Source: Endozoicomonas montiporae CL-33 (GTDB lineage: Bacteria > Pseudomonadota > Gammaproteobacteria > Pseudomonadales > Endozoicomonadaceae). Taken from it: DNA of 64,000 nt. Numbering within the stretch: the stretch's first letter is position 1; every line of letters starts with the position of its first letter. A program made the position numbers and the translations under genes. The stretch is from NCBI RefSeq assembly GCF_001583435.1, contig NZ_CP013251.1:1034501-1098500 (forward strand), in the 5' to 3' direction. Positions 2,969-17,488 of this stretch are shown here, piece by piece. The notes beneath the pieces are model-generated. The model worked only from the letters and a program-made list of their open reading frames with translations, made no database searches and was not told where the DNA came from.

Positions 2969-3253
2969 AGTACTTCTCCCTCTACGACAAGCTTGCGGCG
3001 TTGAGCGGTTCTGTTTTAGTTAGTTTCCTCTTTTAAAGCCTGTTTCAATTTATTTTTCCTTATACATCAATAAGTTTAGCGCTTTCAGGATACTTCTCCT
3101 TTAGACATTGGTCGATGATTCAACCTGCGTCATATAAAAAGAACACATAGTTGCTGATCTGACTGTAAAAAATTATTAATATAGCGAGTGGTAAGCACCA
3201 GGGATTTTAAAATAACAAAACGAAATCATCCTTTTGGAAGGGGCGTCAACACG

Positions 3254-4375
3254 ATGAAGAATAATAAAAAAACACTATTAAGCCTTGCAGCATCCATGCT
3301 GTTTGCAGGCAGTATTCAGGTGGCTCAGGCTGCTGACATCATCAAAATAGCTTTGGCGGGGCCTGTTACCGGGCCGGTTGCCCAGTATGGTGATATGCAG
3401 TTTACCGGTGCCAAAATGGCTATTGAGCAAATCAATAAGGCAGGCGGTGTCAATGGTAAACAATTACAAGCAGTCGTTTATGATGATGCCTGTGATCCTA
3501 AGCAGGCTGTCGCCGTAGCCAACAAAATTGTGAATGATGCTGTGAAGTTTGTTGTAGGGCATTTGTGTTCATCCTCTACTCAGCCCGCCTCTGACATTTA
3601 TGAAGACGAGGGCGTGCTGATGATTACTGCGGCTTCCACCAGTCCGGATATCACCAGTCGCGGCTATAAACTGATTTTCCGCACCATTGGTCTTGATAGC
3701 TTACAAGGGCCCACAGCAGGCAATTATATTGTCAACAAAGTCAAGCCAAAGAAAATGGCAGTGGTTCATGACAAACAGCAGTACGGTGAAGGCATTGCAA
3801 GAGCCGTTAAAAAAGTTGTAGAAGATGCGGGCATTGATGTTGCCGTGTTTGAAGGTGTGACCTCTGGTGACAAGGATTTCTCTGCGTTGATCGCCAAACT
3901 CAAGAAAGAGAATGTAGAGTTTGTTTATTACGGTGGCTATCACCCTGAGCTGGGATTAATCCTGAGACAGAGTGCAGAGAAGGGTTTGAAAGTACCTTTC
4001 ATGGGACCTGAAGGTGTCGGTAATAAAGATATCTCTGCGATTGCGGGGGCCGCTTCAGAAGGTCTGCTGGTGACACTGCCCAAGAGTTTTGACCAGGACC
4101 CGGCCAATGCCAAACTGGTTGAAGCGATCAAAGCCAAGGGTGATGACGCGTCAGGCCCCTTTGTATTTCCGGCTTACTCCGCGGTTCAGGTCATGGCTGA
4201 TGGCATGAAGCTGACCAAAAATGAAGACCCTGAAGATGTTGCAGATATTCTCCGCAGAAATGTATTTGCAACGCCTACCGGTCAGTTGGCGTTTGATGGC
4301 AGTGGTGACCTGAGAGACTTTAGCTTTGTCGTCTATGAGTGGCATGCAGATGGTACAAAAACGGCACTGGATTAA
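3254..4375 (+). CDS. livJ: Branched-chain amino acid ABC transporter, periplasmic binding protein
   Basis: This is the Leu/Ile/Val-type periplasmic binding protein that delivers substrate to LivHM. The ATG at 3254 was chosen over an in-frame GTG at 3188 because it gives a typical signal peptide: MKNNKK, a hydrophobic core, and AQA before a cleavage site after residue 26. A GGAAGGGG ribosome site lies 8-11 bases upstream. The mature protein opens IKIALAGPVTGPVAQYGD, the family's usual first strand and ligand loop, and has the paired Cys of the DDACDPKQA region. At 373 residues it has the normal length. It is first in the operon and is separated from livH by a strong hairpin, consistent with higher expression of the binding protein than of the membrane genes. 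Confidence 0.95.
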   Translation: MKNNKKTLLSLAASMLFAGSIQVAQAADIIKIALAGPVTGPVAQYGDMQFTGAKMAIEQINKAGGVNGKQLQAVVYDDACDPKQAVAVANKIVNDAVKFVVGHLCSSSTQPASDIYEDEGVLMITAASTSPDITSRGYKLIFRTIGLDSLQGPTAGNYIVNKVKPKKMAVVHDKQQYGEGIARAVKKVVEDAGIDVAVFEGVTSGDKDFSALIAKLKKENVEFVYYGGYHPELGLILRQSAEKGLKVPFMGPEGVGNKDISAIAGAASEGLLVTLPKSFDQDPANAKLVEAIKAKGDDASGPFVFPAYSAVQVMADGMKLTKNEDPEDVADILRRNVFATPTGQLAFDGSGDLRDFSFVVYEWHADGTKTALD

Positions 4376-4425
4376 TAGCTATACCTCAACATAAGACATT
4401 GATTGTCTAATAAAAATAAGAAGTA

Positions 4426-4463
4426 CAGAGCCTGATAACAGCGTTCGTTGTTATCAGGCTCTG
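4426..4463 (+). promoter_or_regulatory. Large hairpin between livJ and livH
   Basis: A perfect 15-bp inverted repeat (4426-4440 and 4449-4463) with an 8-base loop lies between the livJ stop and the livH start. The G-rich ribosome site of livH begins right at the base of the stem. No T-run follows, so it is unlikely to be a full terminator. In binding-protein transporter operons such intercistronic hairpins usually protect the upstream mRNA from 3' decay or reduce downstream translation. Confidence 0.7.
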
Positions 4464-4474
4464 GGGGTTCAATA

Positions 4475-5401
4475 ATGACAGACGCTCTTTACTACTTTAT
4501 CCAGCAACTTCTCAATGGGTTGACGGTCGGCAGCACCTACGCTCTGATCGCCATCGGTTATACAATGGTCTACGGCATCATTGGCATGATCAATTTTGCT
4601 CACGGCGAGATCTACATGATTGGCAGTTATATTGCCTTTATTGTGCTTGCCGCTCTCGCCATGATGGGCATCGACAGTGTCGTTTTGATGCTGACCGCTG
4701 CTTTTATTATCAGCATCATTATCACCAGCTCTTATGGGTTTGCTGTGGAAAGGGTCGCCTATCGTCCCCTGAGAAACAGCAACCGGCTCATTGCTCTCAT
4801 TTCCGCTATTGGTATGTCTATTTTCCTCCAAAACTATGTTCGTTTGGCGCAGGACTCCAGAGATATTGCCATGCCGGGAATGATTAATGGTGGGTGGGTT
4901 TTTGGGCCAGACGACGGCTTTAATGCAACGTTGTCGTATATGCAGGTCATCATTTTCATTGTTACTTTTGTATCGATGACGCTTTTAACACTGTTTATAT
5001 CCCGTTCTCGCATGGGTAGAGCCTGCCGCGCCTGTGCAGAAGACCTTGGCATGACAGGGCTGCTGGGCATTAATACCAACCAGATTATCTCCCTGACTTT
5101 TGTTATTGGTGCGGCACTGGCTGCTGTGGCTGGTGTTCTTCTGGGCATGTATTACGGCGTTGTTAATCCCTACATTGGTTTTATGGCGGGGTTAAAAGCG
5201 TTTACAGCGGCAGTGCTGGGCGGTATTGGCAGTATTCCCGGAGCGGTACTGGGAGGGCTGATACTGGGTGTGACGGAGGCGATGACTGCGGGCTATTTCA
5301 GTACTGAGTATAAAGACGCCGTAGCATTCAGTCTTTTGGTGTTGATCCTGTTGTTTCGGCCTACAGGTATCCTCGGTAAGCCGGAGGTTGAAAAAGTATG
5401 A
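4475..5401 (+). CDS. livH: Branched-chain amino acid ABC transporter permease LivH
   Basis: LivH is one of two inner-membrane permeases of the high-affinity Leu/Ile/Val importer. The ATG at 4475 ([11 protein letters not shown]) is preferred to an upstream in-frame start at 4448, which lies inside the intercistronic hairpin. The 308-residue product is almost wholly hydrophobic with about eight predicted spans. It has the family's N-terminal signature [21 protein letters not shown] and NFAHGE, and, towards the C-terminus, the G-rich [17 protein letters not shown] segment typical of the LivH permease-ATPase contact. The stop overlaps the livM start by four bases (ATGA), so translation is probably coupled. 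Confidence 0.95.
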
Positions 5402-6705
5402 AAACACTTCGCTGGACTCCGGCTGTTTTATCGTCCGTTGTTTTAATCATTCTTGCCAGCCTGATGCTGGGTGTGCAGCTTCAGTCGGACGGCATGATTC
5501 TGCGTGTTAAAGGGGTGGAAACCTCCGTCTATTTAACCATTGCCATCGCTTCCGCAGTCGTTTTTTTCTTTCAGCTATTTAGAGACTGGCTGGATCGGGG
5601 TTTTAAATCGTTAAAGGAAAAGTTGCCTTCTGTTCCTGCTCATAGGGAAAAGCCGGCTTATTTTATTCAGGCTCGAAGGCTGGCTATCTGTTTTGCGATT
5701 GCTGCCTTACTGGTATGGCCGTTTTATGCCTCAAGAGGTGCTATTGATCTTGCAACTCTGACGCTGATTTACGTCATGCTTGGTCTCGGGTTGAATGTTG
5801 TTGTGGGTCTGGCGGGGCTGTTGGATTTAGGTTATGTCGGTTTTTATGCCGTAGGCGCTTATGGTTACGCCCTGTTAAATCAGTATTTCGGTGTGGATTT
5901 CTGGACCGGGCTGTTAGCCGGAGGACTTCTGGCTGCGTTTTTCGGTTTTATTCTTGGTTTTCCGGTGTTGCGCTTGCGGGGTGATTACCTTGCCATTGTC
6001 ACACTGGGATTTGGCGAGATTATTCGTATTTTGCTGAACAACTGGACGGAATTAACCAACGGTCCTAACGGTATTTCCCAGATTCCCAAGCCGACGCTGT
6101 TTGGTCTGGAGTTTAACCGGCGCGCCAAAGAGGGCACAGCCTTTCATGAATTCTTTGGTATTGAATACAGTGGCGTCTATAAGGTGATCTTTCTTTATAT
6201 TCTTGCCTTATTACTGGTTTTTGCCACCTTGTTTGTGATTAATCGCTTGCTCAGAATGCCCATTGGCAGAGCCTGGGAAGCGTTAAGGGAAGATGATATT
6301 GCCTGCCGCTCTCTGGGCTTAAACCCTACGGCCATTAAACTGTCCGCTTTTACCATTGGTGCCACTTTTGCCGGTTTTGCCGGTACGTTCTTTGCTGCAC
6401 GACAGGGCTTTATTAGTCCTGAGTCGTTTACCTTTATTGAGTCGGCCATCATCCTCGCCATTGTGGTGCTTGGGGGAATGGGCTCTCAGTTGGGAGTGAT
6501 TCTTGCGGCCGTGATCATGACCATGCTGCCGGAACTGGCCAGAGAGTTTCAGGAATACCGGATGTTAATGTTTGGTTTGATGATGGTGTGCATGATGATC
6601 TGGCGCCCCGAAGGGTTGTTGCCGATGAAGCGCCCTCATCTGACGTTAAAAAACAAACATAAAACTTCTGAAGGTCAGGTTGTTGAAGCAGGAGCATCTT
6701 CATGA
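5398..6705 (+). CDS. livM: Branched-chain amino acid ABC transporter permease LivM
   Basis: LivM is the second permease of the transporter. At 435 residues it carries the extra N-terminal region seen in the long LivM proteins (two hydrophobic spans, about residues 8-70, DUF3382-like) followed by the core permease domain. The core includes [27 protein letters not shown] (about residues 128-154) and the conserved [16 protein letters not shown] segment. Near the C-terminus is the [13 protein letters not shown] loop that faces the ATPase. It overlaps livH and livG by four bases each, in both cases through ATGA, so the three genes are tightly coupled. Confidence 0.95.
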
Positions 6706-7469
6706 GCGAATGGTTACTGGAAGCTGATGATCTGAGTATGCGCTTTGGTGGCTTGCTGGCGGTGGATCAGGTGGCTTTAAAAGTACGACTGGGAGAGATC
6801 GTTTCGATTATCGGGCCAAACGGTGCCGGTAAAACAACGGTCTTTAATTGTCTGACCGGTTTTTATAAACCCACCGGCGGCGTGGTTCGCTTTAAGGGCA
6901 AAGCTATTCAGCATCTGCCCGGCTTTAAAATATCCAGGCTGGGGCTGGTTCGGACTTTTCAGAATGTACGTCTGTTTAAAAGCATGACGGTACTGGAAAA
7001 CTTACTGGTGGCTCAGCACCGTCACCTGAATACCAATCTGTTATCCGGTTTGTTTAAAACACCCGCTTTTCGGCGAAGTGAGCGGAAGGCGTTGGAACAG
7101 TCTGAATATTGGTTAAATAAAGTCGGGTTATCGGAGTTTGCTAATCGCGAGGCAGGTAACCTTGCCTATGGGCAGCAACGCAGGCTGGAGATTGCCCGCT
7201 GCATGGTGACCCGGCCTGAACTGCTGATGCTCGATGAACCGGCTGCCGGACTTAATCCGAATGAAACGGCTGAACTGGATCAGCTGATTTCAGATCTGCG
7301 CGCCAATCACAATGTTTCGGTGTTGCTGATAGAACACGATATGAAGCTGGTGATGGACATATCCGATCGAATTTATGTGATTAATCAGGGGCGGCCATTG
7401 GCTTCCGGCGTGCCGGACAGTGTTCGCAGTCATCCGGAAGTGATCAAGGCGTATCTGGGAGAGTCCTGA
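6702..7469 (+). CDS. livG: Branched-chain amino acid ABC transporter ATPase LivG
   Basis: LivG is one of the two cytoplasmic ATPases that power LivHM. Walker A is GPNGAGKTT at residues 38-46. The signature loop is degenerate, reading [11 protein letters not shown] instead of SGGQ, which is the normal LivG state. Walker B is [10 protein letters not shown], and the H-loop histidine is in [16 protein letters not shown] is the conserved LivG Q-loop. At 255 residues it has the usual length. The ATG overlaps the livM stop, and livF starts three bases after the livG stop. Confidence 0.96.
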
Positions 7470-7472
7470 ACC

Positions 7473-8213
7473 ATGGCAAATGATGTCATCGAGACGTTAA
7501 TGGGTAAGCCTTTGCTGAGTGTGAACAAGGTATCCACTTTTTATGGCAAGGTGCAGGCACTGGATGAGGTCAGTGTCGATATTTATCCCGGCGAAATTGT
7601 CACCCTGATTGGTGCCAATGGTGCAGGCAAAACATCATTGTTAATGACCATCTGTGGTGAGCCACGGGCGAGTTCGGGCAGCATTCATTATGATGGTCAG
7701 TTGATTACCGATAAGCCAACCTCTGAAATTATGCGCTCGGGGCTGGCTCTGGTTCCCGAAGGCCGGCGTATTTTTTCTCGCCTGACGGTTGAAGAAAATC
7801 TGACCATGGGCGGTTTTTTTGTCGAAGGAGAAGCCTTTCAGCGTAACCTCGATCATGTTTTACAGTTGTTTCCCCGATTAAAAGAGCGCATGAAACAACG
7901 GGGAGGCACGATGTCCGGTGGTGAGCAGCAGATGCTGGCCATCGCCAGAGGCTTGATGAGTTCGCCGCGGCTGTTATTGCTGGATGAGCCTTCCCTGGGA
8001 CTGGCTCCCATTATCATTCAGCAGATTTTCGAGATCATTGAAAAGCTGCGCAGTGACGGTGTCACCATCTTTCTGGTTGAACAAAACGCTAATCAGGCTT
8101 TAAAACTGGCTGATCGTGGTTATGTTCTGGAAAACGGCCGCATTGTTCTTCAGGATCAGGGAAGTGTCCTGTTGACCAACGAAGCGGTTCAGGAAGCCTA
8201 TCTAGGAGGCTGA
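7473..8213 (+). CDS. livF: Branched-chain amino acid ABC transporter ATPase LivF
   Basis: LivF is the partner ATPase of LivG. Walker A is GANGAGKTS (residues 47-55), the signature motif is MSGGEQQMLAIARG, Walker B is LLLLDEPSLG and the H-loop region is FLVEQNA. The 246-residue protein is about 10 residues longer than usual because of the N-terminal MANDVIETLMGKP. An in-frame ATG at 7500 (MGKPLL) is an alternative start. The last codons and stop (Leu-Gly-Gly-stop) lie inside the left terminal repeat of the palindromic element at 8202-8415. LivF proteins commonly end in this tripeptide, so the protein looks undamaged. Confidence 0.95.
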   Translation: MANDVIETLMGKPLLSVNKVSTFYGKVQALDEVSVDIYPGEIVTLIGANGAGKTSLLMTICGEPRASSGSIHYDGQLITDKPTSEIMRSGLALVPEGRRIFSRLTVEENLTMGGFFVEGEAFQRNLDHVLQLFPRLKERMKQRGGTMSGGEQQMLAIARGLMSSPRLLLLDEPSLGLAPIIIQQIFEIIEKLRSDGVTIFLVEQNANQALKLADRGYVLENGRIVLQDQGSVLLTNEAVQEAYLGG

Positions 8214-8415
8214 CCGAGAATAGCGCCCGTAGCGAGGATGGCAGAAAATTGAGGATGAAAAGTCGGTTTTGTGAGGAGAATAGCAAGCTATTTGACGAAC
8301 AGAAGCGACTTTTCAGACCAATTTACTGTCACCGCACGACTGCATGGATGCAGGAGTTAGTGCAACGCAGGAGCAGTTGCCGGTACGGCAGTCTATTCTC
8401 GGACAGCCTCCTTAG
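8202..8415. mobile_element. MITE-like palindromic element overlapping end of livF
   Basis: About 214 bp is bounded by inverted repeats of about 22 bp (8202-8223 and 8393-8415); 19 of the central 20 pairs match and the outer part has a 1-base insertion. Nested inside are a perfect 10-bp inverted repeat (TGAAAAGTCG at 8256 and its complement at 8306) and further short hairpins such as CTGCATGGATGCAG and TGCCGGTACGGCA. There is no coding capacity. Short length, terminal repeats and internal foldbacks fit a non-autonomous transposable element. No clear target duplication is visible, although TA occurs at or near both ends. Confidence 0.65.
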
Positions 8416-8469
8416 TGCCTGATTTGTCAAATGAGTGACGTTGCGTTGTTTTGCTCTCGCCCTTTAATG

Positions 8470-8502
8470 GTCGATACCTACCACTGATCGGTTGGTATCG
8501 AC
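8470..8502. terminator. Hairpin downstream of liv operon
   Basis: A perfect 9-bp inverted repeat GTCGATACC / GGTATCGAC with a 15-base loop lies about 260 bases after livF. A T-rich stretch begins 13 bases later. It could be the distal terminator of the liv operon or a protein-binding palindrome. Confidence 0.4.
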
Positions 8503-8638
8503 TTCCTGCCCCTCTCTTTTTTCTGAAATTCAACCGACAGGCCGTGAATACAGGCAATAACGACCTCTTGACTGGTTCACGAACCTTTTGAACTGCTTCC
8601 TATAATTTCAACTGATTAGGTAGTACGAGGTAAGCAGT

Positions 8639-8755
8639 ATGAAACCTTCGAATGATCAATTGAGCCGTCAGGAAATAATCCTGTTGTCTCTTTCTTTTTT
8701 GGCCCTGGGACTGTCTTTATTTTACTTTGCACAAAGCCTCTTTTTCGGGTTCTGA
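8639..8755 (+). CDS. Small single-span membrane protein downstream of liv operon
   Basis: A 38-residue reading frame starts MKPSNDQLSRQE after a GAGGTAA ribosome site. A short polar head is followed by one hydrophobic helix (residues 13-38) containing ILLSLSF and ending SLFFGF. It resembles the 37-residue protein encoded at 2855-2968 on the other side of the liv operon: both have an acidic residue, two or three aliphatic residues, LSLSF, and an aromatic-rich end. No family name is recognised. It stands alone between the palindromic element and the large hybrid kinase gene, on the same strand as both. Confidence 0.6.
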   Translation: MKPSNDQLSRQEIILLSLSFLALGLSLFYFAQSLFFGF

Positions 8756-8839
8756 GAGGCTGCAGCACCGCTAAAACTTTCATTGGCGGAGGCGATTGAA
8801 TAAAGGACAAAACCAGTCAATCCGGCTGATCAGGATGCA

Positions 8840-11800
8840 ATGGATTTGCCCTTTATGAAGCAATCAGACAGTCAACTTTCTCAGACCAAGTTCAGACATG
8901 GGCTGGCAGCCACGTTGTTTGGCTGGTTCATGATCTTGTCGTTAACACCGATCGCCATCATTGGTTTTAATGAGTACCGGGAAGGTAAAAAAAACATTGT
9001 TGATAGTCGTTATCAGGAGCTGACAACGATTAACCTGCTGCTGAGTCAGCAAGTTAATGATTATTTTGACTCAGTGGTAACTAACCTGTTTATCAAGGCT
9101 GGCACTGCACAGGATTTTTTACATCAGCTTAAAACCGGGTTTGTAGCATCAAACAACAGTCTTAATGACTTTGTTTACTCAGATCCTTACAACCGGATAC
9201 TGGATGAGTATTCCCGGGAATTTCTTGATTTTCTCCGTTTTTACGATTATTCCGACGTTATTCTTGCGGACTCGGAAGGCAACATTCTCTATACCGTCAA
9301 TGCGTATTCTGATCTTGGAAAAAACCTGTTTAATGATGAGGCTCTGAAAGAAACATCGTTCTTTTATGCCGTTAAAAACAGCATAGAGCAGGCAGAACCA
9401 CGCTATGCCGATGTGGATCTTTATCCGGCAGTACAGGATCAGCCGGTCAGTTTTTTCATTCTGCCTTTGGTTAATGACCGTGAAGAAGTCGTGGGCGTTC
9501 TGGCGGTTCAAATCCTTGCCTATAACGTGCAGAGCATTTTCGAGAATGATAACCAGTTTGGCGAAGGGTTGAAGTCTTACCTGGTGGGTACCGATCAGTA
9601 CGTCCGCTATGGAACCGAGCTGGGTTCTGACCAGACCATGAAAATCAAGGTTAACAACCCGCTGGTTGAGAACTGGATTGCTCATCTGGACGATGACACG
9701 TTTGAATTTGTTGAGCTCGATGAGCATCTGGATCACGATCATGGTCACGATGAACTTAGTGAAAGTGAGTTTGATGACCTGAGTCTGGATATGGAAGACG
9801 AAGGTGAGCACTCGAAAAAGAACGAGGTGCAGGTGGCGAGTGTTGCTCATATTCTCAGTTATAAAAATGCAGACAGTATGTCGGTATTAGGAACATTTCA
9901 TCCCATTAATGTTGCTGGAACCCCTCTGGTGATGATCTCTGAAGTACTGGAAACCGATGCGTTTGCTTCCGTTAAAAGCTTTCGAAATCGACTGTTGTTT
10001 ATTGCCGCGATCACCATTCTTCTGGTGTTGATGATTGCTCTGCTGATTACCCGCAGGCTGGTAAAACCCATTCGTACGATCACTGCCTGGGTAAATCGGG
10101 TGGCATCCGGAGACTATGTGCAGGTTGATGTCATCAGCGGTCACAATGAAATCAGTGAGCTCAGCAGCAGCTTTGCCGAGATGACCGAGAAACTGCGGCA
10201 GGTCATTAATGATAACAAGAGAAAGAGCTGGCAACAGGATGGTCAAGCAGGGCTGAATGACAGCATACGTGGTGATCATGAAATTGCGGAACTGTGCAAG
10301 AACATTGTCTCGTATCTTGCAAAGTATCTGGGTATGCAGACAGGGGCTATGTACGTCCTTGATGATGAGAAACAGTTACAGCTGATGGGTTCTTACGCCT
10401 GGAGCCGACGCAAGCAGACCAAAAACAGTTTTGAATTCGGTGAAGGCATGGTTGGGCAAGCGGCTCTTGAGCAGCAGACCATTGAGTTGACTAACCTGCC
10501 GGAAGACTACATGACTGTGGAATCCGGGCTGGGAATGACACCACCGCAATCAGTCATCGTAGTGCCGCTTATTTATGAAAATGAAGTGAAAGGTGTGCTT
10601 GAGTTTGGATTGCTCAAGCCATTGAATGAAGAACAAAAAGCCTTCCTTGAACGGTCGGTTGAGAATGTCGCCATTGGTATCAATTCAGCCCAGTACCGTA
10701 CCCGTGTCAATCAATTGTTGGACAAAACCACCAAACAGTCGGAAGCCATGCGTGAGCAGCAGGAAGAACTGAAGGCTGTGAATGATGAGCTGGAGAACCG
10801 CGCCAAGATTCTGGAAGAGTCACAGGAAGAGTTACAAGCTCAAAGTGAGGAAATGCAGAAGTCCAACGTTGAGCTGGAAGAAAAGACAGAAATGCTGCAA
10901 CAGCAAAAAGCTGAAATTGAACGAAAGAATCTTGATATAGAGCTGTCCAGTAAGTCACTGGAAGAAAAAGCCAAAGAATTAGAACTCGCCAGCAAGTACA
11001 AGTCAGAGTTTCTGGCCAATATGTCTCATGAACTCCGTACACCACTTAACTCATTGCTTCTGCTGGCACAAATGCTGGCTGACAACGATGAAGGTAACCT
11101 GACAGAAGATCAGATTGAATCCGCCGAGGTGATCTACAACGGTGGTAAAGAACTGCTCGACCTGATTAATGACATTCTTGATCTGTCGAAAGTAGAAGCA
11201 GGCAAGATGGCCATCAATCTTGAAGATGTTGATATTGAAGAACTGTGTACCAGTGCCAAAACGTTATTTAAACCGCTGGCTGATGACCGTGGGCTGGATT
11301 TTTCTGTTGAAGTGGACCCGGGAACCACTCAGGTCATTCTGTCAGACAGTCAGCGACTTATGCAGATTATCAAAAACTTCCTGTCTAACGGCTTCAAGTT
11401 CACAGAAAAAGGCGGTGTTTATATCCGCATTCACAACACCAGCCGCCAGACTGAGCATGGTGAAGAAACCTATGTGGCTTTTGATGTCAGGGATACAGGC
11501 ATAGGCATTCCTGAAGAAAAGCAGAAGTTGATTTTTGAGGCGTTCCAACAGGCGGATGGTTCAACCAGCCGGCAATATGGTGGCACAGGGTTAGGTCTGG
11601 CGATTTCGAGGGAAATGGCCAATATGCTGGGCGGCTATATCGGTATTGAAAGTACAGAGGGCGAGGGAACCACCTTTACGCTCTATTTGCCAGATAACGC
11701 GGTTTGTTCTCTGACCGGAGAGAGAGTGCTGGCAGACAGTTATTCTCCATCCGTTTCTGAAGGGTTGTCTGGTAACTCGACTAAAAAAGCAGACGCCAAG

Positions 11801-13042
11801 TCTGAAAAATCACGCAAGAAAATCAAGGAAATGGATTCGGCTCCACCGGTGGCTGCAGCGCCTTCTGTACCCAGAGCCGCGGCTGGAAAAACGCTGCTGC
11901 TGATAGAAGATGATGAACATTTTTCCGGAATACTGGCTCAAATCGGAGAAAGACATCATTTTGTCTGTTTGATAGCGCACAGCGGGCAGGAAGGGATCGA
12001 AATGGCGAAGTCCAGCCAGCCAGGTGCTATCGTGCTGGATCTTGGCTTGCCTGATATGGATGGTGAAGCTGTTCTGAACAAACTCAAGAGTGACCCTGCT
12101 ACCAAAGATATTCCAGTACACATTATTTCCGGACGGGTTCTGGATGACGTGAGAAATAATCATGCAGTGGGCTATTTGACCAAGCCTGTGACGGTGGCTG
12201 ATCTTGAGTCTGTTTTCACCACCTTAGAGCAGGCAATTTCAGCAGACATTAGCCATACCCTGTTGCTCGATGCCGACGACAACAGCAGGGTGCATATGAA
12301 AGAGCTGCTGGTGAAGAAAGGACTGAATGTGGGTGAAGCGGCAACGGCTGCTGATGCTATGTCTTCACAACTGGAACACAACTGGCAGTGCCTTGTAATG
12401 GATGTCGATTTGCCGGATATGAGTGGTCTGTCGTTTCTTGAAGGTCTGAATGAAAAACTACAGGGCAAGATGCCATCCATCGTTATCTATACCAGCAGAT
12501 CGCTTGAGCGTGAAGAACATAACCAGCTGCAGAAATACAGCAGCTCAATGGTCATGAAAGGGGATCTGGCCTCGGACCGTGTGTTAGATGAAGTCAGTCT
12601 GTTCATGCATTCCATTGACAAAAATAATGACGCTGAAGAAGAACCCGCCGCGATTGCAGAGCATTCACTGGAAGGGCACAAAATTTTGTTGGTGGACGAT
12701 GATTTGCGCAATACCTTTGCCCTGTCAAAAGGGCTTCAGGCTCTGGGGCTGGAAGTGCTTATTGCAGACAACGGTCAGAATGCCCTGATCAAACTTGAAG
12801 AAGAAGACGGCATTGAACTGGTATTGATGGATATCATGATGCCGGTGATGGATGGTTATGAAGCCATGACCAAAATGCGTGAAAACCCACATTTAAAAGA
12901 TCTGCCGGTGATAGCCCTGACAGCCAAAGCCATGTCCGATGATAAGGCTAAATGCATTGATGCAGGGGCTAATGATTATATGACCAAGCCAGTGGATATT
13001 GAAAAGCTGGTGGCCATGATGAAGCTGTGGTTATTCAAATGA
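8840..13042 (+). CDS. Hybrid histidine kinase: periplasmic sensor-HAMP-GAF-HisKA-HATPase-REC-REC-REC
   Basis: This 1400-residue inner-membrane sensor kinase has its domains in clear order. A membrane span lies near residues 21-46, a periplasmic sensor domain to about 380, a second span near 384-405, HAMP to about 465 and GAF at about 478-618. A long Glu/Gln-rich coiled coil covers 627-722. HisKA follows with phosphoacceptor H730 in MSHELRTP, then the ATPase domain to about 955 and three receivers with phosphoacceptors D1067, D1188 and D1331. The sensor domain is cache-like in size and carries a His/Asp-rich insert at about 295-330. The first and third receivers have full acidic pockets and KP lysines; the middle one is more divergent. 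CheR and CheB genes follow with overlapping ends. The stimulus is unknown. An in-frame ATG at 8855 is an alternative start. Confidence 0.9.
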   Translation: MDLPFMKQSDSQLSQTKFRHGLAATLFGWFMILSLTPIAIIGFNEYREGKKNIVDSRYQELTTINLLLSQQVNDYFDSVVTNLFIKAGTAQDFLHQLKTGFVASNNSLNDFVYSDPYNRILDEYSREFLDFLRFYDYSDVILADSEGNILYTVNAYSDLGKNLFNDEALKETSFFYAVKNSIEQAEPRYADVDLYPAVQDQPVSFFILPLVNDREEVVGVLAVQILAYNVQSIFENDNQFGEGLKSYLVGTDQYVRYGTELGSDQTMKIKVNNPLVENWIAHLDDDTFEFVELDEHLDHDHGHDELSESEFDDLSLDMEDEGEHSKKNEVQVASVAHILSYKNADSMSVLGTFHPINVAGTPLVMISEVLETDAFASVKSFRNRLLFIAAITILLVLMIALLITRRLVKPIRTITAWVNRVASGDYVQVDVISGHNEISELSSSFAEMTEKLRQVINDNKRKSWQQDGQAGLNDSIRGDHEIAELCKNIVSYLAKYLGMQTGAMYVLDDEKQLQLMGSYAWSRRKQTKNSFEFGEGMVGQAALEQQTIELTNLPEDYMTVESGLGMTPPQSVIVVPLIYENEVKGVLEFGLLKPLNEEQKAFLERSVENVAIGINSAQYRTRVNQLLDKTTKQSEAMREQQEELKAVNDELENRAKILEESQEELQAQSEEMQKSNVELEEKTEMLQQQKAEIERKNLDIELSSKSLEEKAKELELASKYKSEFLANMSHELRTPLNSLLLLAQMLADNDEGNLTEDQIESAEVIYNGGKELLDLINDILDLSKVEAGKMAINLEDVDIEELCTSAKTLFKPLADDRGLDFSVEVDPGTTQVILSDSQRLMQIIKNFLSNGFKFTEKGGVYIRIHNTSRQTEHGEETYVAFDVRDTGIGIPEEKQKLIFEAFQQADGSTSRQYGGTGLGLAISREMANMLGGYIGIESTEGEGTTFTLYLPDNAVCSLTGERVLADSYSPSVSEGLSGNSTKKADAKSEKSRKKIKEMDSAPPVAAAPSVPRAAAGKTLLLIEDDEHFSGILAQIGERHHFVCLIAHSGQEGIEMAKSSQPGAIVLDLGLPDMDGEAVLNKLKSDPATKDIPVHIISGRVLDDVRNNHAVGYLTKPVTVADLESVFTTLEQAISADISHTLLLDADDNSRVHMKELLVKKGLNVGEAATAADAMSSQLEHNWQCLVMDVDLPDMSGLSFLEGLNEKLQGKMPSIVIYTSRSLEREEHNQLQKYSSSMVMKGDLASDRVLDEVSLFMHSIDKNNDAEEEPAAIAEHSLEGHKILLVDDDLRNTFALSKGLQALGLEVLIADNGQNALIKLEEEDGIELVLMDIMMPVMDGYEAMTKMRENPHLKDLPVIALTAKAMSDDKAKCIDAGANDYMTKPVDIEKLVAMMKLWLFK

Positions 13043-13860
13043 CAGATGACTTTCAGGACCTTGAACTGCAGCTGCTGATGGATGCAGTGAAGGCCCGGTA
13101 TGGTTATGAGTTTGCCCATTATGCACGGGCTTCCATGATGCGGCGGATCCGTAAACATATGGAAGCGGCCAAAACCGATCGGATCAGTGATCTTATTCCC
13201 CTGTTTATTCACAACAAGGCGGCATTTGCCCATTTCGTGAAAGACATGTCGGTCACTGTGACTGAAATGTTCCGTGATCCTGACTTTTTTCAGGCATTGC
13301 GCAAGAGCATTGTGCCTTTACTCAAGACGTTTCCATTTATCAAAATCTGGCATGCCGGTTGTGCAACCGGGCAGGAAGCGTATTCCATGGCCATTATGCT
13401 GGACGAAGAAAATCTGCTGGAACGTTGCCAGATCTATGCCACGGATTTTAATGAAAACTCTTTGAAAATTGCCCGCAGTGGCATTTACCCCGATGCCGAT
13501 CTGGCGCTCTATCAGGAAAACTACAGCAAGTCGGGTGGTTGCAAGTCACTGGATCAATACTGCAGCCGTGGGTATGACTCGATAAAGTTCAATGGACGTT
13601 TAACCGAACATATTACTTTTGCAAACCACAATCTGGTGTCTGATGGTGTGTTTGGTGAAATGAATCTTATCCTCTGCCGCAATGTATTGATTTACTTTAA
13701 CAACGAACTGCAAGACCGAGTATTGAAGTTGTTAATAGACAGCTTACGGTCTCGTGGGATTCTGTGTCTGGGGCGTAGGGAAAATATTCGCTTCAGCGAA
13801 GCGGCAGGTTTGCTGGAAACCGTTGATCGTCATCAACGCATCTTCAGGAAGAAAGCCTGA
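13039..13860 (+). CDS. CheR-type protein-glutamate O-methyltransferase
   Basis: The 273-residue protein is a CheR-type methyltransferase that transfers methyl groups from S-adenosylmethionine to glutamates. An N-terminal helical CheR_N region (about 1-75) includes the basic helix with MMRRIRKHM. The SAM-binding motif HAGCATGQEAYS is at residues 105-116; canonical CheR has GCSTGEEPYS, so Glu is replaced by Gln here. It also has ATDFNENSL and NLILCRNVLIYF, both typical of the family. The ATG at 13039 overlaps the kinase stop (ATGA). No chemoreceptor, CheA or CheW is encoded nearby, so a non-chemotaxis role tied to the hybrid kinase is likely. An in-frame GTG at 13027 is less likely as start. 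Confidence 0.92.
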   Translation: MTDDFQDLELQLLMDAVKARYGYEFAHYARASMMRRIRKHMEAAKTDRISDLIPLFIHNKAAFAHFVKDMSVTVTEMFRDPDFFQALRKSIVPLLKTFPFIKIWHAGCATGQEAYSMAIMLDEENLLERCQIYATDFNENSLKIARSGIYPDADLALYQENYSKSGGCKSLDQYCSRGYDSIKFNGRLTEHITFANHNLVSDGVFGEMNLILCRNVLIYFNNELQDRVLKLLIDSLRSRGILCLGRRENIRFSEAAGLLETVDRHQRIFRKKA

Positions 13861-14438
13861 TGCCAGTGCCAGCAGTATCGATGGTTGAGCGTCTGGTGGT
13901 TATAGGCGCTTCGGCAGGCGGTTTTAGTGCTCTACAGACCATTTTTTCCGGGCTGGGAACCGATTTCGACTTTCCCATACTGGTTTGCAAGCATTTGGGC
14001 ATTGGTGATGAAAAAGGATTGGTGGATGTGTTAGCCAGCCGGACAGGCACAACCGTGATGTTATCGCAGGATAAATTGCCTATGTATAACGGCTGTATTT
14101 ATATGGCACCCGGCAACTATCACCTGCAGGTGGAATCCAGAGATACGATCAGCCTGAGCATTGATGAACGAATTTGCCATTCAAGGCCTGCAGTGGATGT
14201 TTTGTTCGAATCGGCTGCTGATGTTTTTAAAGATCAGGTAACGGCCGTCGTTCTGACCGGAGCCAACAGTGACGGTGCAGCCGGTGTTGAAGCCATTAAA
14301 AACTCGGGTGGCAAAGTTGTGGTTCAGTCACTGGATTCAGCTGAAGTGAAGATAATGCCAAAGGCAGCCATCGAGACCGGATGCGTAGACGAGATTCTTG
14401 ATTTAGAAGACATTGCCGCCTATCTCAGGCGGTCTTAA
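13860..14438 (+). CDS. Stand-alone CheB-type methylesterase
   Basis: The 192-residue protein is the catalytic domain of CheB without the usual N-terminal receiver. It would remove methyl groups from, or deamidate, glutamates modified by the neighbouring CheR. The catalytic triad can be placed: S18 in GASAGG, H45 in CKHLG and D138 in TGANSDGAAG. APGNYH, the conserved loop near the active site, is also present. The start overlaps the cheR stop by one base (TGATG), so the two are translationally coupled. Without a receiver it cannot be activated by direct phosphorylation; control through the kinase receivers or by protein contact is inferred. Confidence 0.92.
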   Translation: MPVPAVSMVERLVVIGASAGGFSALQTIFSGLGTDFDFPILVCKHLGIGDEKGLVDVLASRTGTTVMLSQDKLPMYNGCIYMAPGNYHLQVESRDTISLSIDERICHSRPAVDVLFESAADVFKDQVTAVVLTGANSDGAAGVEAIKNSGGKVVVQSLDSAEVKIMPKAAIETGCVDEILDLEDIAAYLRRS

Positions 14439-14497
14439 AGGATTGATATAAACGTTAACAATAGAGAATTAGAGGAAATCGCTCAGGGAAGGAACCT

Positions 14498-15832
14498 ATG
14501 AGTAACTCAAGCAAGGTAAAAATTCTGGTGGTTGATGACCGCAAGGAAAATCTACTGGCCATGGATAAACTTCTGAAACCATTAGGGGCGGAAGTTCGCA
14601 AGGTGGATTCCGGAGAAGCCGCACTGTCAGAAGTGTTGCATCATCAGTTTGCGGTCATTCTTCTGGATGTTCAAATGCCGGGGATGGATGGTTTCGAGTG
14701 CGCTACCCTGTTGCACAGTAACAAGCAGACAGCGAATATTCCAATTATCTTTGTGACGGCGATCAACAAGGATCAGGCCTACGTTAACAAAGGTTATAAG
14801 GCAGGTGCCGTAGACTATCTGCCCAAACCTATAGTTCCGGAAATTCTGCTGGGTAAGGTTAAAGTATTTTTACAGCTGGAAAAGCAGCGGTTAGAGCTGG
14901 AAGATGTGACCAAACAGTTACGCTGGATCAGCCGTAAAAACAAACTATTGCTGGACTGTGCCAGTGAAGGCATTGTCGGTCTGGATAATGATGGGCACAT
15001 ATCTTTTAGTAACCCTGCGGCGTGCGCATTGCTCAGTGGAACTGAAGAGTCTCTGCTGGGAAAACATATCAGTCAGTTTATGTATGAGCCGGAGAACAGT
15101 GACCCCATGAGCACATGGGATCATTCTGAAATGAAAGAAGAGTGTTTGCAAAATGGTGGAACTTTTCAGGTGGCTGCTGACCTATGGCGGCTCACAGAAG
15201 GCAGTTTTCCCGCTGAACTGAATGCAGCTGCTCTGGTGAATGGCAAGAACAAGGTTAAGGGTGCAGTTTTGGTCTTTAACGACATTACAGAGCGGAAAAA
15301 GCTGGAAGATCAGCTGACCAAAATGGCAAAGTACGACAACCTGACAGGGTTGGCTAACCGGGCCTTGTTTAAGGAGTTTCTGCAAATGTCACTGGCCAGA
15401 AGTGAGCGACGGAATAAGAATACCGGTGTTATGTATCTTGATCTTGACCACTTTAAGGAAATAAACGACACACTGGGTCATGATGCCGGAGATGCTTTAT
15501 TGGTGAGTGTTGCAAACCGCTTGCAGGAGTGTGTGCGGGATGGGGACATGGTGGCGCGACTAGGTGGCGATGAATTTGCCATCGTATTGGATGATGTAGC
15601 TGATCCTGAGGACGCCAAAACCATTGCAGAAAAAATTCTGGAACAGTTCGCTTTACCTCATGACTTGTCCGGTGAAATGCGTAAGGTGGGAACCAGTATT
15701 GGCATTGCGACATCTAGCCATTCTGGCGATGACCCGGATGGTCTGATCAAAGCAGCGGATGATGCAATGTATGTAGCAAAAAAAGCGGGTCGCAACGATT
15801 ATCGAATTGCCCATGAGTTGAAGGATTCGTAA
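14498..15832 (+). CDS. Response regulator with PAS and GGDEF diguanylate cyclase domain
   Basis: The 444-residue cytoplasmic protein has a receiver (about 7-125, acidic pocket D13/D14, phosphoacceptor D57 in LLDVQMPGMDG), a PAS domain (about 145-262) and a GGDEF domain to the end. The active site GGDEF is intact at residues 356-360, and an RxxD inhibitory site (RDGD, 347-350) sits exactly five residues before it. The cyclase should therefore make c-di-GMP from GTP and be product-inhibited. There is no EAL domain. The gene lies 59 bases after cheB behind a GGGAAGGAACCT ribosome site, so it is probably the output of the kinase-CheR-CheB cluster. A strong terminator follows. Confidence 0.94.
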   Translation: MSNSSKVKILVVDDRKENLLAMDKLLKPLGAEVRKVDSGEAALSEVLHHQFAVILLDVQMPGMDGFECATLLHSNKQTANIPIIFVTAINKDQAYVNKGYKAGAVDYLPKPIVPEILLGKVKVFLQLEKQRLELEDVTKQLRWISRKNKLLLDCASEGIVGLDNDGHISFSNPAACALLSGTEESLLGKHISQFMYEPENSDPMSTWDHSEMKEECLQNGGTFQVAADLWRLTEGSFPAELNAAALVNGKNKVKGAVLVFNDITERKKLEDQLTKMAKYDNLTGLANRALFKEFLQMSLARSERRNKNTGVMYLDLDHFKEINDTLGHDAGDALLVSVANRLQECVRDGDMVARLGGDEFAIVLDDVADPEDAKTIAEKILEQFALPHDLSGEMRKVGTSIGIATSSHSGDDPDGLIKAADDAMYVAKKAGRNDYRIAHELKDS

Positions 15833-15857
15833 TTACGATTGTTATCAAATCTCGGTA

Positions 15858-15895
15858 GATACAAAGAAGCCCGCAACTGCGGGCTTCTTTGTATC
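15858..15895. terminator. Strong bidirectional terminator
   Basis: A perfect 18-bp inverted repeat with a 2-base centre (15858-15875 / 15878-15895), GC-rich at its core (GCCCGC / GCGGGC) and with TTCTTT on one side and AAAGAA on the other, lies between the convergent cyclase and AbgT genes. Confidence 0.85.
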
Positions 15896-15913
15896 TGGCA
15901 TTAAGCGTCAGAG

Positions 15914-17488
15914 TTACATTATCGGGTAGGTGTAAGTAGCACCGATACCCAGAGGCAGACCCAGAGCCCAGAACAGCAGCAGGAACGCGGTCCAGCCAAT
16001 CATGAAGACGATGGAATAAGGCATCATCATGGAAGCAACGGTACCGATACCGGCGTTCTTAACATAACGTTGGGTGAATACAATGATAACCGGGTAGTAG
16101 GACATCATTGGGGTAATGATATTGGAAGAGGAGTCACCAATACGGTAAGCCGCCTGCGCCAGTTCCGGAGAAATGCCCACAGCCATCAGCATTGGAACAA
16201 AGATTGGACCAATGATAGCCCACTTCGCGGAAGCCGAACCCACACACAGGTTTACGACAGCTGTCAGCAGAACAATACCAACAATAGTCACCTGACCAGG
16301 CAGGTTCATAGCTTGCAGCAAGTCGGCGCCAGACAGTGCCAGCAGTGTGCCCAGGTTGGAATCACCAAATGCTTTCAGGAACTGGGAGCAGAAGAACGCC
16401 ATAACGATGTAGCTGCTCATGGTCTTCATGGAACCACTCATGCTGCCAATCACGTCACGGTGATTCTTGAAGGTGCCAGTCATACGACCGTAAATCACAC
16501 CCGGTGTGAGGAAGAAAATGAAAATCAGAGGCACAATAGAGCGCATCAGCGGAGAGCTGAACGCGGTCAGGCTGCCGTCTGCGGCACGCATTGGAGAGGT
16601 TTCCGGCAGGCACAGGGCAAACAGAGCAAGACCCATACCCAGCAGAACCAGAGAACTGACGGTAAACGCTCGGTTTTCCTGGGCACTGTAACTGCTCATG
16701 TCTTCCACTGAACCTTCTTCATCACTGACCTCAACGGACTGCAGATGAGGCTCAACAATGCGCTCGGTCACGAACCAGCCCATCAGGGTCACCAGGAAGG
16801 TGGAGCAGAAAGTGAAGTAGTAGTTGGCCAGAGGATTCATCTGGTAATCCGGATCAAACAACTGGGCTGCAGACTGGGTAAAGCTTTGCAGCAGAGGGTC
16901 CAGTGCTGATGGCAGAAGACCGGCAGAGAAGCCACCGGAAACACCGGCAAACGCGGCAGCCAGACCGGCCAGAGGGTGACGACCCGCAGCCTTGAAGATG
17001 ATGGCACCGATTGGAATAACCAGTACATAACCGGCGTCGGTGGCAATAGAGCTGACCGCACCAATAAAGACTACAGCTGGAGCCAGCAGTTTGTCCGGTG
17101 TGACACGAACCATTTTCTTCAGGGCGATGTTGATGTAGCCGGAAGACTCGGCAATACCGACACCCATAACGGATGCCAGAACCATACCCAGTGGCGCAAA
17201 GCTGGTGAAGGTGTTCACCATGGAAGCAAACAGATCGGCAAGATAATCCGCATCAATCAGGTTAGCTACCTGAAGGGCTTCACCGGTTCTTGGGTTGATG
17301 TAACTGAAGCTGAACATGGAAAACAGTGCAGACAGCACCAGGACCAGGCCCAGACAGTAAACAAACAGCATAGCCGGATCAGGAAGACGGTTCCCTGTCC
17401 GCTCTATTCTGTCAAGAAAGCGATCCATAAAGGTGGACTGGGCACTCGAACCACCCGAGTGACTCGCCGCACTACTCGCATTATTCAT
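15914..17488 (-). CDS. AbgT family transporter
   Basis: The 524-residue protein belongs to the AbgT family of inner-membrane transporters. E. coli AbgT takes up p-aminobenzoyl-glutamate; other members export sulfonamide-like antimetabolites. After a hydrophilic start with DRFLDRIERTGNRLPDP (family-typical) come about a dozen hydrophobic segments. The conserved GSASAKWAIIGPIFVPMLM region occurs in the C-terminal half, and YRIGDSSSNIITPMMSY is the second re-entrant hairpin signature. Its length is normal. The direction of transport cannot be decided from sequence. It stands alone between a terminator and about 310 bases of non-coding DNA. Confidence 0.9.
   Translation of the reverse strand: MNNASSAASHSGGSSAQSTFMDRFLDRIERTGNRLPDPAMLFVYCLGLVLVLSALFSMFSFSYINPRTGEALQVANLIDADYLADLFASMVNTFTSFAPLGMVLASVMGVGIAESSGYINIALKKMVRVTPDKLLAPAVVFIGAVSSIATDAGYVLVIPIGAIIFKAAGRHPLAGLAAAFAGVSGGFSAGLLPSALDPLLQSFTQSAAQLFDPDYQMNPLANYYFTFCSTFLVTLMGWFVTERIVEPHLQSVEVSDEEGSVEDMSSYSAQENRAFTVSSLVLLGMGLALFALCLPETSPMRAADGSLTAFSSPLMRSIVPLIFIFFLTPGVIYGRMTGTFKNHRDVIGSMSGSMKTMSSYIVMAFFCSQFLKAFGDSNLGTLLALSGADLLQAMNLPGQVTIVGIVLLTAVVNLCVGSASAKWAIIGPIFVPMLMAVGISPELAQAAYRIGDSSSNIITPMMSYYPVIIVFTQRYVKNAGIGTVASMMMPYSIVFMIGWTAFLLLFWALGLPLGIGATYTYPIM

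Follow-up and report, generated by a model that had tools for sequence, protein, structure and literature searches.

The window analysed here is a 64,000-nucleotide stretch of the genome of Endozoicomonas montiporae CL-33 (contig NZ_CP013251.1, positions 1,034,501 to 1,098,500). It encodes an operon of four genes, namely a membrane hybrid histidine kinase, a CheR methyltransferase, a CheB methylesterase and a REC-PAS-GGDEF response regulator. CheR and CheB probably methylate, reversibly, the coiled coil of this kinase, so that the operon would form a two-component system that carries its own means of adaptation by methylation. The kinase coil is favoured as the target because (i) the sole CheR and CheB matches of the genome adjoin the kinase, (ii) the kinase-CheR pair occurs in genomes devoid of chemoreceptor and CheW matches, (iii) this CheR is tightly linked to this type of kinase, (iv) kinases that lack such a CheR have fewer glutamate pairs (E-E dyads) in the coil, the core of which they retain, (v) similar E-E heptads are found past the CheR domain of CheB-CheR fusions, and (vi) the chemoreceptor PilJ of this genome has NQ where its relatives accompanied by the methyltransferase PilK have QQ.

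In brief, a stimulus would be sensed via the Cache-like and GAF domains of the kinase and the signal would run along the dimeric coiled coil into HisKA. CheR would methylate the outer-face glutamates (heptad positions b and c) of the dyads E642/E643, E663/E664 and E670/E671, and CheB would strip the methyl esters. Methylation would alter the charge and the stability of the coil and thereby shift the set point of the kinase, as CheR and CheB do for chemoreceptors. The kinase would then pass phosphate to its three receivers and to the REC-PAS-GGDEF protein, leading to a change in cyclic di-GMP (c-di-GMP). Since this CheB has no receiver, feedback cannot operate by phosphorylation of CheB in cis; CheB could instead respond to the conformation of the coil it acts on, or be governed in trans by a kinase receiver. 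We infer the methylation itself, the direction of its effect, the transfer of phosphate to the GGDEF protein and the control of CheB from the comparisons described below.

The initial annotation of this DNA had described four same-strand genes, and this arrangement was recovered exactly: the ATG of cheR (13039) overlaps the kinase gene by 4 bases, the ATG of cheB (13860) overlaps cheR by 1 base, and 59 bases separate cheB from the gene of the REC-PAS-GGDEF protein. Its domain assignments, including the receiver-less CheB, were confirmed with Pfam, and the Glu/Gln-rich coil that it had placed between GAF and HisKA (residues 627-722) was located as well, with the quoted motifs at kinase residues 640 and 661. 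The Cache match in the kinase sensor scores under the Pfam cut-off. The kinase carries H730 in HisKA and the receiver aspartates D1067, D1188 and D1331, and no MCPsignal domain (PF00015) was detected in it by Pfam. The CheR_N and CheR domains and the S-adenosylmethionine (SAM)-binding motifs characteristic of the CheR class are all present in the methyltransferase, for which a glutamyl methyltransferase activity is predicted. Its nearest sequence neighbour in the PDB is 5ftw (E=2.5e-33), followed by 1bc5 and 1af7 (7e-18 for 1bc5), and its nearest named relatives belong to Endozoicomonas. CheB consists of a single Pfam domain, the N-terminal receiver of classical CheB being absent, and its residues S18, H45 and D138, which we take to be the Ser/His/Asp catalytic triad, align with solved CheB domains (3sft). 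The REC-PAS-GGDEF protein matches PleD and WspR and has the REC aspartate, the GGDEF motif and the I-site; this REC-linked diguanylate cyclase, encoded within the operon with intact motifs, is the predicted output of the kinase.

To place the operon among its relatives, CheR loci were collected with an alignment of 20 CheR relatives (A1), and the best 80 named bacterial loci were kept, as a sample rather than a census. These loci span Pseudomonadota, Bacteroidota, Desulfobacterota-type taxa, Bacillota, Spirochaetales, Acidobacteria, Nitrospirae, cyanobacteria, Planctomycetota, Calditrichota, Myxococcales and others. A histidine kinase of some kind is present in 72 of them, CheB in 68, REC-GGDEF in 28, a match to a methyl-accepting chemotaxis protein (MCP) in two and CheW in none; REC was detected in 0/68 of the CheB open reading frames (ORFs). 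A coil kinase, defined as a same-strand kinase within 7 kb with at least two [QNEDSK]EE[LMI] motifs in the ~100 residues before the H-box, lies near CheR in 61/80 loci, and in 49/58 where more than 5 kb of upstream sequence is present (65/80 and 53/58 with a laxer rule). Ten of the 19 loci without a coil kinase have less than 5 kb upstream, and nine have room for one (L046, L055, L057, L065, L087, L090, L091, L097, L100). One of the latter (L057) retains the coil, separated from HisKA by a PAS domain, and in two others (L091, L100) the coil is present with degraded repeats. Proximity to CheR also marks the dyads: at least two [QNEDSK]EE[LMI] motifs precede the H-box in 57 of the 66 kinase ORFs lying within 60 bp of CheR, whereas 38 of the 60 other kinase ORFs of the same loci have one or none; the remaining 22 belong to the same coil type and lie at a greater distance from CheR.

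The linkage was also surveyed in 390 genomes of the order, with a coil kinase called at 144 bits or more against A2, an alignment of 30 coil and HisKA segments, and CheR at 268 bits or more against A1. Both occur in 77 genomes and neither in 302, while 10 genomes have just the kinase and one has just CheR (Fisher p = 4e-69, relatedness ignored). For 84/89 of the CheR genes, a coil kinase is found no more than 8 kb away.

Furthermore, the genome content of several bacteria indicates that the CheR-kinase system persists independently of chemoreceptors. In the window's family a CheR match is present in 30/37 genomes and an MCP match in 31/37; across the class, 20/369 genomes encode a CheR of this type (at least 260 bits against A1) and 275 have an MCP match, three of the 20 (G065, G151, G365) being without one. 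In total, five genomes (G003, G015, G065, G151, G365) possess CheR with neither an MCP nor a CheW match, and in all five CheR adjoins a hybrid kinase (L151, L148, L149, L150, L347). Completeness is 97-100% for G003, G065, G151 and G365, and 90% for G015, which is in 1,220 contigs. The reverse case is found in G023 and G024, which encode PilJ, an MCP, and yielded no match to CheR.

The genome of E. montiporae itself (a single contig of 5,430,256 bases, completeness 100) has one chemoreceptor match. No MCP, CheA or CheW is encoded in the operon, and the absence of all three from its surroundings, pointed out in the initial annotation, holds: the sole MCP match of the genome is PilJ (C1:446384), ~600 kb away, and the three CheW-domain matches all lie in the same pil-chp cluster. 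In that cluster (L006, 3649-13968), no PilK or ChpB was seen. A rival possibility is that CheR and CheB methylate PilJ, in the distant Pil-Chp pathway, as PilJ is the only MCP match of a genome that yielded no second CheR or CheB. This is highly improbable, because the PilJ dyad has been lost and because CheR and PilJ occur separately across genomes, as the five chemoreceptor-free genomes and the pair G023 and G024 illustrate. Searched with the strict consensus for MCP methylation ([ASTG][ASTG]xx[EQ][EQ]xx[ASTG][ASTG], PMC6391922), the PilJ proteins gave one site, in 3/21. At the columns of this site, QQ is found in 5/5 relatives with PilK and NQ, which is not an E/Q dyad, in the PilJ of the window genome; among PilJ proteins without an adjacent PilK, the E/Q dyad is present in 2/16 (G025, G031). 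This comparison covers strict-consensus sites, beyond which further sites could exist.

The outer face of the kinase coil is conserved. Gaps inside the coil of A2 are of 7 residues or multiples of 7, and the positions corresponding to E671, N676, E678 and L679 of the window kinase (E47, N52, E54 and L55 of A2) are invariant in 30/30 segments, as is the H-box. When the invariant leucine is placed at d and the invariant asparagine at a, the E-E dyads occupy b and c, on the outer face. The structural core accounts for conservation at a and d, so conservation at b and c calls for another reason. Judged on the counts near CheR, the E-E dyads are a family feature and not a product of chance. In the 15 family members with CheR, the two glutamates of E642-E643 are kept in 15/15 and 14/15, and those of E663-E664 in 15/15 and 15/15.

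The relation of the dyads to CheR was examined in 196 kinases, grouped according to whether CheR is linked, located elsewhere in the genome, or of no such type in it (none with at least 260 bits against A1, other CheR types occurring in some of these genomes). Eleven kinases whose pre-HisKA segment is not a coiled coil were dropped (two linked, six elsewhere, three without CheR) and 185 were kept; fixed alignment columns were read, gapped rows were omitted for each dyad and each set of identical rows was taken as one. QQ[EE]L, the first dyad, is present in 115/145 CheR-linked kinases, 15/19 with CheR elsewhere and 4/19 without CheR, and the N[EE]L dyad in 96/145, 11/19 and 3/19, respectively. 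The core residues L, N and L are retained in 142, 144 and 145 of the 145 linked kinases and in 19, 19 and 19 of the 19 CheR-less ones. After clustering at 75% identity the difference persists, with 68/89 vs 3/13 for QQ[EE]L (Fisher 3e-4) and 59/89 vs 2/13 for N[EE]L (Fisher 7e-4), relatedness being ignored in both tests. The search with A2 favours kinases resembling the CheR-linked ones, so that CheR-less kinases are under-sampled. The association between dyads and CheR is strong in raw and clustered counts, but without significance once descent is taken into account, as detailed below.

A constraint on the b/c face that tracks CheR would also follow from docking alone. CheR and CheB might bind the coil without methylating it, the dyads serving as a docking or charge-coupling surface and CheR as a partner that senses SAM or S-adenosylhomocysteine, and the strict MCP consensus is indeed missing from the coil. 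We regard this explanation as unlikely: catalytic and SAM motifs are retained in CheR and CheB, and the presence of CheB beside CheR in 68/80 of the best loci is hard to explain without a methyl group to remove.

A natural deletion bears on the same question. In two genomes from another genus of the window's family (G001, G002), the operon has a minimal form, in which the kinase ORF is followed directly by the REC-GGDEF ORF (L348, 10364-14971; L349, 1805-6418). No CheR or CheB is found between them or elsewhere on those contigs, and no CheR or MCP match was obtained in either genome. The length of the coil is unchanged relative to the 15 CheR-containing family members. In the CheR-less kinase of G002 (L249), E642-E643 is replaced by HD, E663-E664 by NK and E670-E671 by QA; in the E-E repeat part of the coil, 6/6 dyad residues are changed and 12/12 core residues retained. 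Over the whole coil, changes affect 10/14 b/c, 0/17 a/d and 3/21 e/f/g positions (Fisher 1.4e-5, relatedness ignored), counted at positions conserved in at least 80% of the 15 reference members. The best control, a CheR-containing kinase (L225) with a HisKA identity to consensus of 0.80 against 0.76 for the CheR-less kinase, shows changes at 3/12 b/c, 2/16 a/d and 6/21 e/f/g positions. The two genomes represent one lineage, in which the direction of the change is taken to be loss. CheR, CheB and receivers are jointly absent while kinase and cyclase remain, which fits a removable adaptation unit. A precedent for this reasoning is described in PMC6391922, where a PilJ orthologue is devoid of methylation sites and its genome has neither the corresponding CheR nor the corresponding CheB.

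In these two genomes the kinase continues for ~156 residues after HATPase, with at most one receiver, whereas three REC are found in 70/77 uncut kinases of CheR loci. The joint disappearance of receivers, CheR and CheB could indicate that the enzymes modify another protein of the operon (a receiver, the GAF domain or the GGDEF protein) and that the dyads track CheR for other reasons. Such a role would have a parallel in Salmonella, where PhoP, a response regulator, is reported as a substrate of CheR, which methylates it at R112 in vitro (PMC8546571), so that CheR can act beyond MCPs; glutamate methylation of PhoP was also seen according to that source, yet was not reproduced by CheR in vitro. 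For the present operon a target of this kind seems quite improbable, since the downstream partner differs among loci (REC-GGDEF in some, REC-histidine kinase and others elsewhere) whereas the coil motif recurs, and since the change in the G001/G002 coil is concentrated on the b/c face. Receiver loss was also considered as a general companion of CheR loss and was not borne out among 17 CheR-less kinases: 13 have two or three REC, the G001/G002 pair has at most one, the G188 kinase has one and that of G210 is a 399-aa fragment.

Methylation of the coil is also in line with the CheB-CheR fusions encoded at nine loci (L139-L147), CheB being detected in 8/9 (the ORF of L142 is cut by the locus end). 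A NEEL/SEEL heptad coil with three to six [QNEDSK]EE[LMI] motifs follows the CheR domain in 7/8 judgeable loci (L139, L141-L143, L145-L147); L140 ends shortly past CheR, and L144, cut by a contig end, was left out of the count. This heptad coil is a possible built-in substrate. A further fusion, in L067, has six EE[LMI] motifs past CheR.

Several observations weigh against methylation of the kinase coil by CheR and CheB. A search of the window coil for the strict MCP methylation consensus found none, and the window is not among the 4/196 kinase segments that contain it. Independent contrasts on a HisKA/HATPase tree gave ~10 pairs, 5.9 for and 1.5 against (median p 0.22), which is not significant, and just three pairs rest on well-supported branches; L209 was omitted from the second tree. 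Dyads are weak or lost in the CheR-linked kinases L091, L100, L204, L206 and L310, and QQ[EE]L is retained in the four CheR-less kinases L169, L175, L211 and L256. In L100, from the cyanobacterium Aliterella, the CheR-adjacent kinase has the repeats QQNEL, NQRL, QQEQL and NADL, with two EEL left upstream. No coil kinase is found at the roomy CheR loci L046, L055, L065, L087, L090 and L097, nor in L098 and L102, where CheR and CheB share one frame. It is also not adjacent in L155, L156, L163 and L165, whose genomes have at least one on other contigs, and CheB is undetected beside CheR in G151 (L149) and in 12/80 of the best loci. In G001 and G002, CheB and most receivers have gone as well, so that the absence of CheR cannot by itself be held responsible for the altered b/c positions. 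Finally, a REC-GGDEF partner occurs in just 28/80 of the best loci.

The interpretation given in the initial annotation receives partial support. Its idea that the coil is itself the methylated substrate gains from the linkage, the chemoreceptor-free genomes and the dyads that track CheR, but not from the strict MCP consensus or the tree-corrected contrast. For the c-di-GMP switch that it envisaged, the operon has an intact REC-PAS-GGDEF gene as a candidate output, but a REC-GGDEF partner is no general trait of the CheR loci; likewise, the four-gene order that it suggested seeking in other genomes recurs for the coil kinase and CheB, but much less so for REC-GGDEF.

Two of the kinases with weak dyads (L204, L206) and a third one (L197), from genomes G254 and G366, have a different coil repeat (such as NAQMEEQQQQL), with E-E in another heptad register. 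CheR-type proteins of these genomes include longer ones (frames of 572-589 aa), and this is possibly a second coil/CheR pairing.

A wider claim, to which we give slightly better than even chances, is that many phyla carry chemoreceptor-free "methyl-accepting histidine kinases", in which CheR and a receiver-less CheB esterify and de-esterify coil dyads, often with a c-di-GMP output, and in which the kinase receivers may replace the receiver control that CheB is missing. Methylation by CheR and CheB is the textbook example of how sensory systems adapt, and it is regarded as belonging to chemoreceptors. If the claim is true, two-component and c-di-GMP signalling would also adapt through a covalent memory, even in organisms devoid of chemotaxis, and a substrate would be found for many CheR/CheB genes apart from chemoreceptors. 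These perhaps include CheR1 of Pseudomonas putida, which we take to be the CheR of the cfc cluster of that species and which is reportedly tied to biofilm formation in the title of a 2013 article by Garcia-Fontana et al. The dyads listed in Table 1 provide specific candidate residues for testing.

Table 1. Coordinates of the operon genes and of kinase features within the window
Feature	Position	Strand	Basis or description
Hybrid histidine kinase, membrane, 1400 aa	8840..13042	+	Cache-like sensor, HAMP, GAF, coiled coil, HisKA, HATPase, three REC (Pfam)
His/Asp/Glu-rich loop DEHLDHDHGHDE, kinase residues ~294-305	9719..9754	+	N-terminal sensor region; sequence
Coiled coil, residues 627-722, GAF to HisKA	10718..11005	+	Proposed methyl-accepting segment (sequence alignment)
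E642-E643 dyad (QQEEL), proposed methylation site	10763..10768	+	b/c heptad positions if L=d
E663-E664 dyad (SQEEL), proposed methylation site	10826..10831	+	Family alignment
E670-E671 dyad (QSEEM), proposed methylation site	10847..10852	+	Family alignment
H730, HisKA phospho-acceptor	11027..11029	+	Residue position in sequence
CheR methyltransferase, 273 aa	13039..13860	+	CheR_N and CheR (Pfam); motifs GCATGQE, ATDFN, CRNVLIYF
CheB methylesterase domain alone, 192 aa, no receiver	13860..14438	+	Pfam CheB_methylest; 3sft and 1chd matches
REC-PAS-GGDEF response regulator, 444 aa	14498..15832	+	Pfam; REC D57, GGDEF at 356, RxxD at 347

The loop DEHLDHDHGHDE of the kinase sensor could be a metal-binding site and, as such, a hint at the stimulus; loops rich in His, Asp and Glu are likewise present in the sensors of 4/4 other family kinases examined (L038, L151, L166, L167). 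Upstream of the operon, on the same strand, an apparent branched-chain amino-acid-type ABC transporter (3188-8213) ends 626 bases before the kinase gene; two ATPases were identified by Pfam, and a binding protein and permeases by eye. In a promoter and terminator scan of 8150-16000, the single promoter-like site lies on the opposite strand, against 9.3 expected from shuffled sequence, and terminator-like sites number 10, against 7.3 expected; neither result was used.

A characterised relative, unnamed in the initial annotation, is the cfcABCDE/CfcR system of P. putida. In strain KT2440, the hybrid kinase gene cfcA (PP_3761) comes first in the cluster, which also comprises a CheR/CheB pair and the REC protein CfcD; CfcA is required, via H496, for the cyclase activity of CfcR, and a role of the CheR/CheB pair in chemotaxis is reported as ruled out (PMC4951495). 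CfcA is described as a CHASE3/GAF kinase (PMC6849547), and PMC12421958 cites it as sensing salt. As in the window, a GAF hybrid kinase is thus clustered with genes for CheR, CheB and a REC protein. The sensor of the window kinase is Cache-like with a His/Asp-rich loop, whereas that of CfcA is CHASE3, in a comparison made by published description; moreover, the window operon includes a REC-PAS-GGDEF gene, whereas CfcR is a GGDEF/EAL protein encoded elsewhere. One further point counts against the proposed mechanism: in an unpublished statement of the authors, mutants of the other cfc genes retained the crinkly phenotype (PMC4951495), so that CheR and CheB appear dispensable for the output as such.

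In the Wsp system (WspA-F, WspR), methylation control of the CheR/CheB type is likewise tied to a c-di-GMP output regulator (PMC8919034); the components of that system include an MCP, two CheW proteins and a hybrid CheA, none of which is encoded in the window operon. MCPs share with the window kinase coiled-coil E/Q dyads paired with CheR and CheB, their classes differing in heptad number (PMC6391922, PMC3543383), but the kinase lacks the MCP signalling domain, the strict consensus and the accompanying CheA and CheW. The C-terminus of the kinase reads MMKLWLFK, unlike that of Tar and Tsr, to which CheR is tethered by the pentapeptide NWETF (PMC7390727). The N-E-E-L heptad coil of the CheB-CheR fusions resembles that of the window kinase, except that enzymes and coil form one chain in the fusions, whereas in the window the coil belongs to the kinase and the enzymes are separate. 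No paper on the methylation of kinases by CheR, or on a kinase coil as a CheR substrate, was recognised in the open-licence literature searched. The operon belongs to a widespread and little-described kind, and methylation of its kinase, which the comparative evidence supports, would represent a new variant of the adaptation mechanism of chemoreceptors.

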